From contig JAHRHY010000014.1 in NCBI GenBank assembly GCA_019671135.1, positions 618,001 to 682,000 on the forward strand: a DNA stretch of 64,000 nucleotides. The letters are read 5' to 3'. The notes beneath the pieces were generated by a model. The model searched no databases. It saw only the letters and a program-made list of their open reading frames with translations, and was not told where the DNA came from. Position numbers and translations under genes: made by a program. Numbering within the stretch: position 1 is the stretch's first letter; the number at the start of each line of letters is the position of its first letter. This stretch comes from Linnemannia hyalina (lineage: Eukaryota; Mortierellomycota; Mortierellomycetes; Mortierellales; Mortierellaceae). Of the stretch, positions 1-59,238 are shown piece by piece.

Positions 1-801
1 AAGGACTTTGTCGACAATTTTAAATCTACTTTCGCCGATCGCAAGATCCACCCTTCTTATTTGTTTACCTGTTTTGAACAATCCCTTCCGGGACTGAAAC
101 AGACCACGATCGCCATACACCGTCCTTTTGACAGCAAATCGTTCGACGAGGCTGTTTCTATTCTTTTAGGGCCTCTCTACCTTGATCGCGACACCCTCCG
201 CGATCGACAACGAGAACTGTTTAATCCTCTTTCCCAGAAAATCTCCCAGTCCTTTATTGATTATTACAATGCATTCACAAACGAGGCAAAGTTACACCCT
301 TCCATCCCCCCACCTGATCTTCTTCATTTATTCTTTTTCTTTCTCAACGACCAACACAAAGCACACCTGGACTGCTTGTACGCCACCTTTTTAATCCATA
401 AGAAACCTGCCTCATCATTTTACGATATTGCTTTCAAATTCATCCGCACCCATCCTGTTCCCCCTCCTACTTTGCCTTCCATCTCCATTCCAGATCGCCA
501 ACCATCTACCGCCCCTGACGACAACCCCTTACCTTCTGTTTCTTTTTTACGTTTGGCTCCTTCGCATTCTTTCCCCTCCGATGTTGTGCTTATAAGAGAC
601 GAAGAGCACCTTATTGAGGAGCAACAGCGCGATCGTTTTTGTGCCACCACCCTTCTTGATCTGGCCAATCGCCCCTCCTATCAACTCATCGACAACATCC
701 TCCACCGTGTTACCTTCCCCCCTCACAACCCCCATCGTATTCAGCCTCAAGTAGTTCTTCCCACCCTTACGCCCTTTTTCTTTCACACGATATCCCTTTG
801 A
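1..801 (+). pseudogene. gag-like region fused by deletion to pre-integrase linker
   Basis: The frame is open from the first base. Up to about base 450 it resembles a retrotransposon gag helical domain, including a run of Phe-rich sequence before NDQHKAHLDC and a downstream FKFIRTH. A proline-rich linker follows. From about base 590 (motifs LIEEQQRDRFC, LIDNILHRV) it matches the stretch that normally sits between RNase H and the integrase H2C2 finger of Ty3/gypsy Pol. Several hundred residues of protease, RT and RNase H are therefore absent. A frame change near base 795 separates it from the integrase. The gag assignment is by pattern only; the pre-integrase assignment is firmer. Confidence 0.6.
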
Positions 802-1954
802 GTGGACATTTGGGTTCAGCTTGGACAAAGCATCGCCTGTTGAGACAATTTTGGTGGCCAACCCTCGACGCCGATGTCAAGGCCTATGCGCGCACTTGCG
901 AAAAGTGTCAAGAGTTCAAGTCGGGGCAAAAGCACATCAATCCCCCTCTGCACCCTCGCCTTACTCTCTCCTCTGCCCCGTTCGTCTGTATCGCCCTTGA
1001 TTTTTTTGGTCCCCTCCCTCTTTCAACATCTGGGTTCAAGTACATCCTCGTGGCCCAAGACATGTTCACCCGTCTTGTTACTCTCATCCCCCTCAAGTCC
1101 ACCAAGGCCGACGACTTCATCGAGGCTATGAGCACCCACTTCTTCCCCGTGCACGGCATCCCTGTCGAATTTGTATCAGGCAAAGGCCTCCTTTTGATTC
1201 TTCCTTGGCCCAAAATTTCGCTTCAACCCTTGGTATCGGCTTTCGTTATGCCCCCGCTTACCACCCTCAGTCAAATGGCCTCGTTAAACGATTCATGGCA
1301 ACACTCCGCAACATGATCAGTTCCTACCTCGATCTACCAGCAACCAGTAGTACCGTCGAATCCACTGCTCAGTCGCGTAAGTTGCTCAAATATCTTCCTC
1401 ATTTCGTCTTTGCATACAACACAGCAAACCATCCCTCTCTCCTCGACACTCCCTTCTACTTTACCCATGGTCGTGATCCTCGCCAGTCACTCCACATAAC
1501 TTCTCCCTGCGACCTATCCTCCGCTATCTCCACCACTACTCTTTCTCTTGCTTTTCGCCACCAATTCTTCTCTGGTTTGATCAACACATAACAGGCAACT
1601 GCGCTCACCCAAGAATTGTCGTCACCTCCTTCAATCGAGCCCACTGACTGGCCTGTCGGTATGACAGTCTGGCTGTACACCCCTCCCCGGACCACCGGTG
1701 ACATCGTGTCCAAGTTCCGCAAGTGCTGGATCGGCCCTTGTCGCATCGCCGCGATCAGATCCATCGACATCCGCGATCTCATCGACCCTCAACAGTGCAG
1801 ACAGCTTTGGATCCACGTCAGCCGCCTCAAGCCATTCTACGACCGCCAAAGCACCACCCCTGAGCCCTCAGTCGTCCCTGCCGTCGACCCCGCGTCTGTT
1901 CCCTTGCCCGAGCCTATCAGGATCAACCCTGTAATCACCTCTCGTTGTTTGTGA
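798..1954 (+). pseudogene. Broken Ty3/gypsy integrase
   Basis: The start carries an H2C2-type zinc finger (SGHLGSAWTKHRLLRQFWWP, then CEKCQ), followed by the integrase core with the first catalytic Asp in LDFFGPLP. The second Asp, normally in a V-S-D-x-G context, is replaced (EFVSGKG). The catalytic Glu after YHPQSNG is replaced by Lys (LVKRF). The frame shifts near base 1195, and TAA interrupts the second half at 1589-1591. The tail from 1640 (DWPVGMTVWLY, then HVSRLKPFYD) is the usual C-terminal integrase segment before a chromodomain or the end of Pol. Catalysis is impossible as encoded. Confidence 0.85.
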
Positions 1955-2111
1955 TCTTGCTGTCTTTCCTTTATTCTTTTTATTATTGTTTTCTTTTTTT
2001 TTTTTTTTTTTTCTTTCCCATTGATGAAATAAAGGGTTAGTTTTATCCCTTCGTCCGTCATTAGTCATTGACAGACTAGGATAAATAAACTATAGTTTCA
2101 ATCTATAGAGG
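1955..2111 (-). other. 3' flank of the nuclease-Fanzor gene with small inverted repeats
   Basis: The tract lies between the two mobile genes and carries a long T run (1990-2010). Read on the minus strand just after the Fanzor stop, it holds the palindrome AAACTATAGTTT (2087-2098). It also holds a short stem, AAGGG/CCCTT, with a ten-base loop (about 2032-2050). The 3' side of TnpB and Fanzor genes is where guide (omega) RNAs are encoded in characterised systems, so this is a candidate place for one. Nothing here proves transcription. Confidence 0.3.
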
Positions 2112-5100
2112 TTATGAGCTTTGCGGCGACGGTCTTGCAAGGGAAGGGGGGCGTCCGAGATGCTTAAGGTAATGCTTGCCGATGATAGCAATGTTGTGCG
2201 CACCCACCAAGTCTCGGTGAATCCACCGCCTGCATTTCACACACGCACAGGTTCTCATCGAGGGCTTAGCAAGTCTTGTCGTCTCACCCATGGAAACGCA
2301 GGTTGGGCACATTGTAGATGTAAGATATTCATCCACTAACGCTACCTTGTACCCAAGGGCCAAGCTCTATCAATTTTAAAAAGGACAAATGAATTAATAT
2401 ACTTGTGTATCCAGATCGCCATGGTATTGAAGGGACATACGATACTAGTAGATACGACCACCCGCACATCTTCTTTCTACTCTCTCCATTCTCATTATTA
2501 CCTTCTGCTGTAGTCTGCGCAAGAACGTCGTGTGGACCGATGTAAGGTTGAACCCTGTCCGAAAAGTCGCGTTTCCCAACGCGAAGAGGACCCTACGCCC
2601 TCCCATTGGGTTACTCTTCAATGCTTCTTTCACAAGTCGGAGCACGCCTGCCACCGCCATGTCCATCTCTGACAACTTTGCCATTCTATGTTGGTATACG
2701 GCCTTCTTCCAGTCCGACGATGAGTAGAATCCATGAATGATCGGCTCCAACTCGAAATACTGCCGTTGCGCGGATTTGAGGGCGTCCTCTGAGTCGTATT
2801 TTGTTGAATGGAGCGCATTCTCAAGATCATGCATCGAAGGTAGAAAAGTTGCCCTGTTCTTGTCATCCGTCTTCCTCGTCCAAAGGCTCGCGTCGACATT
2901 ATCTGCGGGACCGGCTGCTGGGTGTTGTCGCCTCCATTCCTGTTCCCATGCTCTGAAGGCGAGTGTTGGCTGATACAGTGATGCGCGCTTTACCAACAAG
3001 TTGACCACAGTTTTGTCATCGAGACGCACACAGAACGCACCGCTCACGACTTCGCCTGGATCGATGCCAATCACCGCCACCGACTCCAAGTCTTGACCGA
3101 ATGCTTCAATTATCGACTGTCGGGTTGGGTACTGGTTCTCGATACGTCGTAGAAACTCCTTACGACCCGGCGCCTGCCGACTCTTGGTGAGGTCATAGGC
3201 CAAAAGTTGCAGCTGATGGCCGTCCGTGCGGATGAAATTGTTCAATGCATACCGAAAGGAAGACTGTGCGCCTTGGATGTGAGGAGGGGTCGGCAATAGT
3301 GGGGGGTTGGAAGGCGGCGGCACTGCAGATGCTGAGGACGACGACGACGATCCGGCCGAGATGGATGCATTGTGTCGGGTTCGGTAATAGTTAATTCGAT
3401 CTGTCAGGTGTCGTGCAAGTGGTCCTTGGTCATAGATGGTGGGGTGGGCAGCCTTGAGTTCACTCATTGTAGCACTTCGTTTCCCGTATGTTGTTTGTTG
3501 TTTGTTTGCGAGCCGAACCGTATTTCGATCTCCAATGAAAAGCATCTTGATGAGGTTCCCGAATGACGTATTGACTTGTAGGTTGGCCCAGTCGTGGCTA
3601 TGAGGGCTGCCGCTCCAAATCAATCCGACTTGACCTGCATCTCTTCCCCAAAGGATACGCATCAGTCCCTCCTCCCTAATGTCGATAAAGCTGTCTGTCA
3701 TCTTGGACTGGGTACAGAAACGTGGTCGGTTTGCCGCTGGAAGTGCCATGAGATAGTTCCAGCATGATCGGATGTGTCCAGGCTGATAGACAATTTTTTT
3801 CGACTTTTTCCTGGGGTTCTCGTCATCGGCATCATCGTCTAGAATAGTACCGTCATCGTCTAGAGTAGTGCCGTCATCACCAGGTTTGTCTTCATCCTCC
3901 TGTTCGACTTTTGGAAGTAGGGCGGGATCGAACTCCAGCTTCTCCATCTATTTTATTGCAAAAAGAAAAAAAGACACAATATTAGAATATGCAATACACT
4001 CTCTCCAATTATCAATGGCGCTTCATCAACGAATTGGGCGATTAGTACCTTTGTGCGTATAGTCTGTGGGAGCTTCTTGTAATGCAACTTCATAGCCAAA
4101 CAGATCTTGGGCGCCAGATCATCGATGACAACACCGAGGGGTATGCTGGATGGGTTAACAGCCTTGAATCCCGGATGGAACCCCTTGAAGGCCGCAAAAA
4201 TCGACACTGCCTCCGCCTGTGCTTCCTTCGACTTTGGCTTGTTGGCTGTAGGTCCTAGTGCTTTTGTCGAATCTCGGAGAACAAACGACAACAGATTCCC
4301 AATAACAATCTCTGCCCAGTCTGAATCCAGAATATCCTCCAGAAAGGACGTCGGCGGCGAACTAGAGAGTAGCTCTCCAAGGATCCGCATTTCGAGCATC
4401 TTGTAGACAAAATGCTTGGCAGTATTGACGATAGACACAGCCATATCAAGTCTCTGAGCAACCATGTCGACGTTCGCCGGGGTGAGATCGGTAGCTCGTT
4501 TCAGGCACCCCTTGACTGATCCAGTGGTAAGTGTGACAGTGGCGAAAACAGACTTGAATGACTTCTTCAGAGCAGCATAACCAGGCCTGTCCTGGTGATA
4601 GTCAAGATGCTTCTTCTTCTTCTTTTTCTTGGCTACAGGGGCAGTGGCAGCTTGTTCGTTGGTGGTAGCGGGATCCTTTGGCTTGTATGGTCGAGGGGTT
4701 GATGGTTTCAGACCAGACAATTCTACGTCCTCGACGGGGCTGGCGTTCTCAAGGTTGACCGTTTGGGGTACGTATCGATCTGCTTGATCCGTCCGGGATC
4801 GGAATCTAGAAATAAACGCGCCAATGTTATGAAGAATAATATTAGTACAGAAGCAATAGAAGTCAATACAAGTGGCTGGATATAACTGAAGATGACGCTA
4901 AAAAGTACTTACTTTGTCCTCTGCCATTTCTGCCTTCTCCTTGACCGGGCGCGTGAGCCATGGCGCATTTCTTGTTTTCTACTCTTTTTGTAGAGTGGAG
5001 GTGCTTGGTCGATAATAGGTGTGGGCGCTGATGGTCCTGTATGTGATGTTTGGCTCCTTGAGAAACGCTCCCAGTTGGTCTTCGCCTTTTTCATCTCAAC

Positions 5101-6604
5101 TTCCTGAATGATAGTCGTGACAAGGCTGTGGATATCGGGTGTGCTGGAAGTCGTTTCGGTCCCACCCATAGGTAAAGGATGCTCGGTGCACATCACGAAC
5201 GCCTGAAGGGCATGATCGAACTGGCTGTCTTTTACGTTCTTCTGGTACTGAGTTATCCCGACCCTGTTCAAGGACCTTTTAGCGTGTTTCTTATACAGTT
5301 GCCTGTGTTTCCCATATTGGAGGTAGGACTCCTCTGCGATCTCCTGGAGCTTGTGGGCGCTGTCGTATACAATCTTCAAGTACTGAATGACGTGGTGTTT
5401 GAATTGTCCAAGTCGCTCCTGGTCGCTCAATCCGTCGAGTCCGTCCAATGTAAACGTCCGAACAATGTCAGCGTTCGACACCAAGCCATAGTAAGGAACG
5501 CCGTCGGTATAGTCGTTTGTTGTTAATATACCAAGAAGAAGAAGGTGGGCTGGAGTGGGGAGCTGGTGTCGATCCATAAGGTCCTGCTTCTGGAATGTTT
5601 TCCACTGACTGCCGACAGGAATAGTGATCGATGTAGAGGCCTCATAGACCAACAAGTCAGAGTCTTTGGTGATGATTCGTACATCCTCCGGCTTGACGGC
5701 ATTATTGAGACAACGGGCAATACAGCAGTCGGCTTGGTGGGGGCAGCGACATATTGTCCACCCCAGATTCTGAAGAGCATCCAGCACTTGTCTCGCGGCA
5801 TCGGGTGGTGCCCGATAAACAGACTTTAGGCGCCGGTATAGCCGTTTCGTCCCTTTGATCTTGTCTTCGTCGTAGTCCTCCATGAGTTTTCTCATCCGCG
5901 TTGTTAGATCACGGTCCCGTTTCTGATGGGCGTGCTCTTTCTCGACCGAACGGGGACCGTCGGCATGGATTGTTGTGCGCCCCTGTGAGACTTTTTTCGT
6001 GAGGATGTCGTGAATAACCTGGCCTATGTGGCCATAGTCCTATTGAAAACACAAAGCAATGAGATAGTATTAGGTATATTTCTTACAGCAGCTTTGTCTT
6101 TGCCGGTTGTATTTGAAAATCGAATGTACTTACAATGCCTTTGTTTTCGGTACGTGTTGTTGTGAGAGTACCATTGCTGTCGAGAAAGATCTGAGCTGGT
6201 CCTCCTTGCAGTAGGTGTTGGACCTGTGTCATAAGGGTTGTCGGAACCGAGCCAGGAGGGATCGCAACAAACACAGGACCGGTCGATGTACTTGTGCCTG
6301 AGGGAGCTCCCAATGTGAGGCGAGCATGTTTGATGGATGGACTCCCCGACTCGGTCCCCTCAGACCCAGATGGCGAATGTGGATGTTTTTGTTCGCCTGG
6401 TACGTTGGTAGCGACAGTTGTTTTTAGTGAGTAGTGCAGTCGGGCCTGCCTGGCTTCGATGCTGACGGTTCCGTAAAATGCACGCGAGTTCAACAGGGCG
6501 AAAAACATCGCCGGAAAGTCCACATGGCATGTTTTTTGGGTGAGATCTTCCTCGATTCCGTCGGAGGCCTCCTTGATCCATGAAGGAAGGACACTGATTC
6601 CCAT
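2112..6604 (-). CDS. FEN1/XPG-like nuclease fused to a Fanzor (TnpB-like) nuclease
   Basis: Five exons: 6604-6135 plus 6134, 6039-4913, 4805-4049, 3947-2502 and 2366-2112. They join in frame (4056 nt, 1351 residues). The N-terminus MGISVLPSWIKEAS and CHVDFPAM (Asp29) match the XPG-N domain. A low-complexity insert follows, then HADGPRS (Asp184), an XPG-I-like stretch (HQADCCIA at about 258-265, TKDSDLLVY with Asp283 and Asp285) and an H3TH-like NDYTDGVP (Asp333). A basic linker with a Lys run (592-598) leads to a Fanzor part: helical N-terminal region, RuvC-I VIGIDPGEV (Asp1081), a RuvC-II-like strand VLFALGNATF, zinc ribbon C1287-x2-C1290 and C1309-x2-C1312, and HRDLVGAHNI (Asp1319). Fanzors are RNA-guided DNA nucleases carried by eukaryotic transposons; XPG/FEN1 enzymes cut flap DNA. 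The Fanzor part has no ATG of its own before its first domain, which argues for fusion. The joint action of the two nucleases is unknown. Confidence 0.85.
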
Positions 6605-7730
6605 TCTTGAACTATGTTAAGAAAAGTGTGAGAGCTAGTGTGAGTCTTCTTGCTTGATAAGTTGTGAAAGGGTATAATGAGTACTGTTCGCAATCACATC
6701 CAGCATCGGCCTTACAGAATGGCTGTTGTGGGTTGCTTCGAAAGGGTGTGGCGAAGATATATGTAAAGTAGTATGTAGGTGGATGTGGAGGAATAGGTGG
6801 ATGTGGAGGAGAGTGTGAGATGTGAGGTGTGCTGAGGAGAGTGTGGTTAGAGAGGAAGAAAGAAAGAGGGAAGAAGGAAAATGGAAGCGGGATTTTATAG
6901 GAAAAGTGGGCAGTGGAAAGGATAAAGGCTTACATGTCGAGACCACTATCACTCAATCATCACACACAAGCGATATAATCTATACCATTCAGGAACAAAT
7001 CGCCAAAACAAAAGCCCAAAAATAACCTGACATTTCCACGATAACTTGCTTCATGCATACCGTGGATGATGGTCACCATCACAAACACCTTTTGTCTCTT
7101 TCATATCTCCTTCATGTCTCTTTCATGTCTCTTTTTGGTTCTCTCATTGTCCCTCTCTTTTTTCTTTTTGCCTCTCTCTCTCCCTCTTTGTTTCCATATC
7201 ATACAGCAAGAAACCATTTCCACAATAACCTGCTTCATGTATACCGTGGATGATGGTCACCATCACAAACACCTTTTGTTCTCTCATTGTCCCTTTCTTT
7301 TTTCCTTTTGCCTCTCTCTCTCTCTCTTTGTTTCCACACCATGCAGCATGAAGTCACCAAAACAATAACCCAAGAGTTTATTGTGGAAATGGCAGGGCTA
7401 TGGTTTTGCTTCAAAAAAAAACAAAAAATAAGGCCTGTTTTATTCGCACCTTGGGTGGTGGTCAACATCGCAAACCATATTCTCTTCTTTTCTTCTCTTT
7501 TTGGTACTCTCTTTGTCTCATTCCTTTCTCTTTTTGGTTCTTTCTTTATCTCTTTCATGTCTCGTTTTGCCTCTCTCATTGTACCTCTGCTTCTCTTGTT
7601 GGCCCTTTGAGCCCCTATTATCTCTCGCCCATATACAAAAGCACACACAGTAAACTAATAACGAACCTTAAGTCAACCACACATTTGCACACTCATCACT
7701 CTACACTCTCCTGGAACAATAGCGTCAACC
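6605..7730. other. Non-coding flank upstream of the nuclease-Fanzor gene
   Basis: No coding region that I can support. It must contain the minus-strand promoter of the nuclease-Fanzor gene in its left part. Its right part is made of the degenerate ~182-bp tandem repeat listed separately. Pyrimidine runs on the plus strand create long Phe/Leu/Ser-rich open frames that do not look like genes. Confidence 0.6.
7024..7600 (+). repeat. Degenerate tandem repeat, about 182-bp unit, 2.5-3 copies
   Basis: The block CCGTGGATGATGGTCACCAT followed by CACAAACACC occurs at 7061 and again at 7243. Both times it is preceded by a variant of CATTTCCAC-ATAAC-TGCTTCATG and followed by CT-rich sequence with TTGCCTCTCTCTC. 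A third, more diverged copy (TTGGGTGGTGGTCAACATCGC, about 7451) continues into the same CT-rich tract. The copies differ by substitutions and small indels, so the duplication is not recent. Confidence 0.7.
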
Positions 7731-8100
7731 ATGTCCGCCTTTATCAAGCTGACTGAACTCGTCACGACGCCAATCTAGGCCAAGTCTGCAACGTCCGCAA
7801 ATTTCTTTGAGCTCGAAACACTCCCCAACATCAACATCCACCATCAAGATGTCACCATCACCTCCCGATGTCAGCCCCCAATCAACAGACGGATCATTGA
7901 CCAGATTGTGCTGCTCAAACGTGATGGGCGCACTGAGCGGGCGTATTCTGCCCGCCCTAGTCATTACTAACCATCCTTCGTCCCGCGACGCCAAGTATGC
8001 AACCTCTATCCGAACCCAAGGAGCGCGCCTAAAAAACTATCGCAGACCTCGAGGACACTTATGGTCATCGAGCTTGCGAGAGCAATCTTTGGTTCGTAAG
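7731..8100 (+). pseudogene. Short broken ORF of unknown family
   Basis: From the ATG at 7731, one frame reads MSAFIKLTELVTTPI and then a TAG at 7776. It continues in the same frame for about 70 codons of protein-like composition (SANFFELETLPNINIHHQD, then INRRIIDQIVLLKRDGRTER) before a second stop (about 7968), and goes on again. Two stops in one otherwise coding-like frame suggest a decayed gene or gene fragment. I do not recognise the family. Confidence 0.4.
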
Positions 8101-8151
8101 TATCCCTTCCTCCGTCAGACTTTTTCAACTTTTTTCATTTATGAAGGGTAA

Positions 8152-9660
8152 CCCTTGAACCGCTTTTTTCCAATTTTTTTGGTGTTGCGTCTTAAACGCA
8201 AAAGAGAGGGAAGAGAATACGGAACATGCCCATCCACTTTTTTTTGGGATACGACATCATTGTCATTGTCTAATGCTTCAATGACTGGGAGGCCTCAGAA
8301 CTAATTGAGTTTTTTTCATTGCAGCATTCACTTAATGCGAATGATGAGGGAAGGGAAAAAAGGTGGATGCTGATGAGGGTCTCGGTGAAGTCTCTCATTT
8401 TTGCTTAAGAATAGGGGGGGTGAGCATTAGTGTTTTTTTTTGCAAATAAGGAATTGAGGGTATCCTCCCGCTATTTCGTGTATAAATTGTGGCCGATTTC
8501 GGCCCAAAAACGAAGGAAGGGATAAGAATTCTCTATGAATTAGTGTGCTCAATAAACGGGTCAACGGCCACTTTCTTTCTCGTCTATCTTCTCTCACTCC
8601 ATGACTCCCTTCCTCTGGTCCTTTTCGTTTTCTTTTTTTTCCTTCTCACTTTCCTCTTCACACGCTCCCACGTTTCTTTCCTCGCCTCCCCATCTCCAAA
8701 TACACTTACTCTAAAAAAAAACATACGAAGTTGTTAAAGGGATGCGCTACCCTCTCCTGTTCCCTCTCAGCCGCCTAGCAACCTTTCCTTTTACCCCTGT
8801 CACGCTCAATCCATCATAGCGACCTCTCCAAGTGCAAAGGATATCAAAAAGCGTATAAAAAATATCCAAAGCCCAAGGAAAGCACTGTAGACTTACATGG
8901 CTGATATCCTATCCAAAGTCTGCATGAGAACTTTAGGGCGAGATAGGCAACAGACAGCACAAGATTTTTTAAAATGTAATCCCTCCTATTTCTCAGCAAA
9001 GAGTAAATGGACACATTCAAGAGATTGGGGTTTTGCGAAAAATAAAAGGAATTTTTGTGTTTAGTAGGATATACGCGAGGAATGTTACAGTGGTTATTTT
9101 ACATGGTTGATGTCGTACACTCTCTTGTAATGGTCGCGGTGGATATCAACGATATCAGCAAGATCTGCAGAGATGTAACAAAACACCATATTATAGTTTG
9201 GAGTTGAAAGCCCCCTTAGCTTGCTCAACGAACCGCTGCATACAACTACTGAAGGGAATTCATAGCGACTATTGTCAATTGAAATATAGAAAAGTGAAGG
9301 ACGCGTTTCTCGTCGGCTACCGTGTTGATGGGATGAGGTTTGGACTAGTTTTCTGACGCAATTGGATGAGTTCCTTATCCTGTTGTTGTTCTTTGTACCT
9401 TTCAGGGCAGGGGTCGAATCGCATCCTTTTGTGCTTGCTTACCCTCTCAGATTAGTGACTGAGCGCATAGTTACATGATGTCATAGTAGGTGTAATCATT
9501 TGCGAAATGCATTGCTAGCTCAGGGACCAATCGAACCTTTTGGTATGGGTACCAGGGATCATGTCTATTGCATCATTGTACCCACCAAGCACTCGATCCG
9601 TACCGAGGCTGCTATCAAGAGCAACAAGAAAGAGAGAAAGTGAATGTTCGGCTGAAAACC
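8152..9660. other. Intergenic, no gene seen
   Basis: About 1.5 kb of AT-rich sequence with many homopolymer T and A runs. I see no open frame with protein-like composition, no convincing tRNA and no repeat array. A CCAAT pentamer lies at 9519 in front of the CsbD-like gene. Confidence 0.5.

Positions 9661-55894: not shown

Positions 55895-59238
<3,344 letters not shown>

Follow-up and report, generated by a model that had tools for sequence, protein, structure and literature searches.

A predicted fusion of a Rad2/XPG-family domain with a Fanzor1-type RNA-guided nuclease in a mobile element of Linnemannia hyalina

TnpB and Fanzor nucleases have been proposed to help mobile elements keep or regain their sites, and enzymes of the Rad2/XPG family (EXO1, FEN1, XPG/Rad2) cut bubbles and flaps in DNA. 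Fanzors are distinguished by a DPG at RuvC-I, an alternative glutamate and an RD motif (PMC10711439), with a D-X(125,275)-[TS][TS]XX-zinc finger spacing motif described in PMC3627910; most Fanzor1 proteins have 600-700 residues, PpFz1 carrying an insertion of about 100 residues inside RuvC (PMC11423790), and the omegaRNA of SpuFz1, a 75-nucleotide scaffold with 14-15 nucleotides of flank, lies between stop codon and element end (PMC10432273). Here we analyze a 64,000-nucleotide stretch of the fungus Linnemannia hyalina (the window; C6:618001-682000 in the 51.5-Mb genome G000), in which a mobile element (2044..8524) bears a minus-strand gene (6604-2112) whose product, as predicted from sequence, is probably a Fanzor1-type RNA-guided nuclease with an N-terminally fused Rad2/XPG-family domain in one protein. 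Like the Fanzor1 proteins SpuFz1, GtFz1 and PpFz1, this XPG-Fanzor has the RuvC-I DPG and the alternative glutamate beside a C4 zinc ribbon, sits in a mobile element and shows, in the place of the omegaRNA (PMC10432273), a candidate structured RNA from the stop codon to the end of the element; a relative gives, in addition, a match to the WED-REC portion of the Fanzor fold. Unlike them, it is 1351 residues long and has an added N-terminal nuclease-family domain. It shares RuvC and zinc ribbon with prokaryotic TnpB, from which it differs by its eukaryotic Fanzor-type active site, its introns and its XPG domain, and it departs from the Rad2/XPG family in being fused to a predicted RNA-guided nuclease. 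A literature search, with most subscription papers outside its scope, found no description of a Fanzor-XPG fusion or of a Fanzor in Mortierella; a query combining TnpB, XPG and eukaryotic returned a Cas12a paper only, and a gene-integration paper (PMC12719977) mentions Fanzor, flap endonuclease and FEN1 one time apiece.

The five exons of the gene join into 1351 codons plus a stop without internal stops and with GT-AG at every intron, in agreement with the original prediction of consensus splice sites and a single frame that includes the 4913/4805 junction. Exon 1 (6134..6604) holds the start of the XPG domain (MGIS..., D29), and exon 2 (4913..6039) its remainder (D184, Q259/D261, D283/D285, D333) followed by a helical part and a basic tail, as judged from motifs and from a family profile that matches RAD2, FEN1 and EXO1. 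After the joining intron (4806..4912, GTAAGT...CTAG, phase 2), exon 3 (4049..4805) carries a linker and the start of the Fanzor core with a WED-type strand (TVTLTTG, residue 622), matching by motif the region of the relative P0009 where its alignment to SpuFz begins, at SpuFz residue 18. Exon 4 (2502..3947) encodes the recognition region, RuvC-I (D1081, GIDPG) and the next RuvC part, and exon 5 (2112..2366) the alternative glutamate E1280, the C4 zinc ribbon, D1319 and the stop.

That both halves belong to one protein is supported by their co-occurrence in the genome, the phase of the joining intron, a single-exon relative, public models holding both halves, and fold matches to both families. 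Among 91 zinc-ribbon matches, 62 have an XPG match (86 in all, pooled from several genome searches) upstream on the same strand at a distance of 1985-4492 bp (median 3451.5), against 3 downstream on the same strand and 2 on the opposite strand, which excludes chance neighbors. Distances between family members in the N half and in the C half are correlated (Spearman 0.87 over the 201 of 406 pairs that overlap sufficiently; Mantel test with 13 of the 29 members, 0/1000), as expected from joint inheritance. The joining intron has phase 2 at codon 532.67 of the window gene and likewise at 336.67 of the deep family L036, and the two introns after it are in phase 0 in both and agree in motif context; phases were computed, and positions were compared through motif context rather than by formal alignment. 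In-frame GT-AG joins are possible at the same place in L039 and L040. The relative L041 (G000:C23:1073817-1078179) runs through a single exon of 1328 codons from its MG start across XPG and RuvC, followed by one intron and then the zinc ribbon, and is identical to the public model P0047 over 1413 residues; a pure splicing artifact is thereby excluded. A search of the L041 frame with phmmer against PDB returned 0 matches, and Pfam gave 0 families at an expectation value (E) of 1.

The same evidence bears on the alternative that an XPG-like protein and a Fanzor are two adjacent genes of one element, merged by gene prediction. The gene models are indeed predictions, retention of the joining intron would stop the XPG frame within the first codons of that intron, and the public model P0001, made from a near-identical copy in the Linnemannia hyalina genome (99% identity over 85% of the query), departs from the five-exon model at both ends. 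Against this stand the single exon of L041, the equal intron phase in L036 and the joined halves in models from several genera, together with the lack of a separate Fanzor start codon, which the original prediction had named as a finding that would speak against fusion: in the window no in-frame ATG lies between the preceding stop and the first WED strand, the first methionine being residue 145 of an open stretch in which TVTL begins at 120, although in the deep families methionine codons do precede the WED strand. We therefore consider two merged genes highly improbable.

The architecture recurs in public proteins. Three protein searches, which scored the 8000, 7996 and 7992 candidates with the most words in common, yielded 48 proteins, whose named sources are Linnemannia, Entomortierella, Podila, Dissophora, Haplosporangium, Mortierella, Benniella and Actinomortierella. 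XPG-I, RuvC-I and the glutamate-zinc-ribbon motif occur together in 16 of them. The XPG-I motif is present in 31 of the 48, with RuvC-I at least 350 residues further on in 25 of these 31, and the 17 without it are partial models or have lost the motif; these counts use a stricter RuvC-I pattern, the loose one having given 26/31 and 17/48 while matching the wrong place in P0019. Public entries are annotated as hypothetical proteins, some named after one half (XPG-I domain-containing, or Cas12f1-like TNB domain-containing protein). A search with L041 gave two proteins among the matches listed. Two proteins, P0005 and P0006 (KI688_003228 and KI688_007005), have XPG and Fanzor preceded by a piggyBac-type domain (PF13843), as a real fusion or a merged model, and the gene model P0043 (KI688_006789) combines PF20147 with a Fanzor zinc ribbon. 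For L041 itself no second close copy was found in the genome, and it could be a domesticated copy.

In the Fanzor half of the window protein the RuvC D-E-D is complete (D1081, E1280, D1319), which bears out the earlier placing of GIDPG, zinc ribbon and HRD at the C-terminal end. GIDPG at RuvC-I provides the Fanzor1 DPG, which L041 shares, most deep models having D-L/G/A-G there; the alternative glutamate E1280 (DEYLTSTMCPTC) precedes the first zinc-ribbon cysteine by six residues (E1280-YLTSTM-CPTC...HRD), as in Fanzor1, and the D-X(125,275)-[TS][TS]XX spacing amounts to 201 residues. Pfam recognizes the zinc ribbon (PF07282) at 41.4 bits over a cut-off of 26.3. At the family level, a profile of 29 relatives matches the TnpB-like L79 with its C half (E 3.2e-6), and Pfam TNB matches 19 of the 29 members at E 0.01. 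One predicted structural model gives fold matches to both the XPG and the Fanzor families, the match to Fanzor covering the WED-REC portion in a modeled relative that lacks the RuvC end.

For the N-terminal half, the profile of the 29 relatives matches RAD2 at 6.8e-12, FEN-1 (1a76) at 2.6e-9 and EXO1 at 3.4e-7, an N-half profile of eight sequences finds RAD2 at 4.4e-9, and 9 of the 29 members have a Pfam XPG_I match at E 0.01; fold and profile thus place the family with the Rad2/XPG catalytic core. Genome-wide, 9 of 13 XPG_I matches exceed the cut-off, four of these nine at zinc-ribbon-paired loci. With residues assigned by motif to the FEN1 acid positions, the window protein has six of the seven metal-binding acids (D29, D184, D261, D283, D285, D333), and Q259 stands for the first XPG-I glutamate. 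The XPG motifs described earlier for this half are borne out, with a correction to XPG-I, which reads HQAD with the first of its two glutamates replaced by glutamine. Six of seven acids argue for a homologous XPG domain; we do not claim membership among active nucleases for the window copy. Unlike in the Rad2/XPG family, the second XPG-I glutamate is an aspartate in 31 of 31 motif-bearing models, and the first is kept in the 21 of these outside the window type (deep families and L041). The eight deep sequences of set A3 keep the acids apart from one N for D. The full set of seven, with aspartate taking the place of the second glutamate, occurs in L041 and in 7/8 deep A3 sequences; seven of the eight A3 sequences begin with MG, the eighth with MS.

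As the glutamate is kept in the deep families and replaced in the window family, XPG nuclease activity appears plausible in the former and doubtful in the latter. This pattern also bears on the alternative of an XPG half that is catalytically dead or weak and serves to bind branched DNA or the guide RNA, leaving a single nuclease in the protein. Inactive Rad2-family members exist, the window family carries Q259, and the XPG region of the window protein falls under the Pfam cut-off; against these points stand the retention of the glutamate in 21 of 31 motif-bearing models and of the acids in set A3. A mere binding role thus seems to us possible but rather doubtful.

Several results weigh against a fused protein with two nuclease domains in the window. 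Taken alone, the window protein matches XPG_I_2 only at E 0.097, below the Pfam cut-off, and an XPG chain in PDB only at E 0.076, its N-terminal half being too diverged for Pfam detection; all 10 window-type models in which the motif is present have Q259 in place of a catalytic glutamate; and the C half of the 29-member profile matches SpuFz at E 0.57 only. The modeled protein is a relative (51% identity over 49% of the query) without the RuvC end and the zinc ribbon, with a mean predicted local distance difference test score (pLDDT) of 64.7 and values below 50 around RuvC-I. P0001 begins inside exon 1 (MTQVQH...) and runs on into the last intron, and thus includes neither the XPG start nor the exon for the zinc ribbon. 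Within the genome, 29 of 91 zinc-ribbon loci have no XPG match within 7 kb and 24 of 86 XPG matches no downstream zinc ribbon; these unpaired matches may be fragments, remnants or halves that exist on their own, or have partners too diverged for recognition. Outside the window, L037 has no consensus donor at the place of the joining intron.

The element that bears the XPG-Fanzor gene has TA at both ends and an inverted sequence at its termini (TATCCCTTC...GAAGGGATA). The end at 2044 is common to eleven copies (window, L013-L022) whose flanks differ, a mobile-element setting as known for Fanzor1. Far ends were placed for the copies other than L017 and L022: a right end near 8524 is common to the window, L014 and L015, and six copies (L013, L016, L018-L021) extend to about 9.5-9.8 kb. 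Copy comparison identifies a 424-bp end piece (8101..8524) with its own TATCCCTTCC...GGAAGGGATA ends, which stands where other copies have a longer right part. Among open reading frames of at least 90 residues in the right part of the full-length copy L013, no transposase was recognized by eye, no family search having been made. Frame and splice sites are unbroken in 10 of the 11 copies (window, L013-L021); the match of the eleventh, L022, begins only at window 6402 and has a stop inside the RuvC exon, and this copy was excluded from the counts of intactness and polymorphism.

These copies bear on a further alternative, in which the gene is a relic that escapes selection and the fusion persists solely through the youth of its copies. 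The window copies are about 98-99.9% identical across the gene, and fragments are numerous in the genome, both as a relic would lead one to expect. Yet architecture and motifs are kept between families at about 25-59% identity, and L041 has a relative in Mortierella sp. GBA39 with 89% identity over 61%. Among the ten copies, codon positions 1, 2 and 3 have 15, 11 and 22 polymorphic sites of 1352 each and introns 11 of 437, so that third positions and introns are more variable than first and second positions, in small numbers and with no statistical test. We consider a relic improbable.

The interval from the stop codon to the element end (2044..2111, minus strand) forms a 68-nucleotide candidate omegaRNA scaffold of two hairpins (-20.2 kcal/mol, z -3.71), with one of 200 shuffles folding equally well, and the second hairpin is closed by the element-terminal TATCC/GGGATA. 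The RNA structure of prokaryotic TnpB likewise ends at the element terminus. The ends of L038 and L035 have a similar pair of hairpins with weaker scores (z -1.77 and -2.84, simple shuffles), and Rfam gave 0 matches at E 1 over window positions 1900-8600. Deep-family element ends have a different hairpin (z -3.05 to -6.45 in six single folds) with 16 predicted pairs, six of them with a kept double change, in an alignment of 10 rows, several of them nearly identical or truncated, and with covariation taken without a shuffle control. The genome contains 52 instances of the motif of this hairpin (0 and 0 for the reversed control). Of these, 19 lie on the same strand as a zinc ribbon and 0.1-1 kb downstream of it, and the other 33, with no zinc ribbon nearby, resemble ghost elements; the window-type end occurs 11 times, always at the 11 copies. 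Two deep-family end motifs on C1 (239135 and 240569) lie on opposite strands, 1.4 kb apart.

Together, these features suggest how an XPG-Fanzor might act. The Fanzor half would be loaded with RNA from the last 68 nucleotides of the element and the adjacent flank and would cut matching DNA, as SpuFz1 does, helping the element to keep or regain its sites; we find this moderately likely. The XPG half could act on the bubble or flap arising from the Fanzor R-loop, where it would process ends or else trim or nick the displaced strand, a prospect that we place close to even and favor over an unrelated role because Rad2/XPG enzymes cut such structures. If Q259 abolishes cleavage, the XPG half of the window family, where a metal-binding glutamate is replaced, may mainly bind the R-loop bubble or flap. 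More tentatively, XPG-Fanzors may form a class of RNA-guided nucleases, widespread in Mortierellaceae-type fungi, that have two active sites, RuvC cutting the guide-matched site and XPG recognizing the R-loop bubble or flap and cutting or trimming it, which would give ends beyond those of a lone Fanzor and steer repair to element retention or re-insertion. Such a protein would be a natural RNA-guided nuclease with a built-in branched-DNA nuclease domain; it makes testable why transposons keep eukaryotic TnpB relatives and how their breaks are processed, and could serve as a template for editors in which a fused structure-specific nuclease shapes the break ends.

At the gene-upstream element end, an A follows GGGATA in all 8 copies, the window among them, whose end was read and is intact, and may reflect a target-side motif; the base outside the 2044-side end varies between copies. 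L013 with its right flank L025 contains an extra minus-strand open reading frame of 163 residues, host-derived in appearance, and a piece similar to exon 1 of another XPG-Fanzor family, both judged by eye. Beside the element, window positions 1-1954 appear, also by eye, to hold the remains of a retroelement, in which stretches of integrase-like translation lie in broken frames. An open reading frame at 57101-58138, judged by eye to resemble an MCM-type helicase, indicates that the mobile element sits among host genes.
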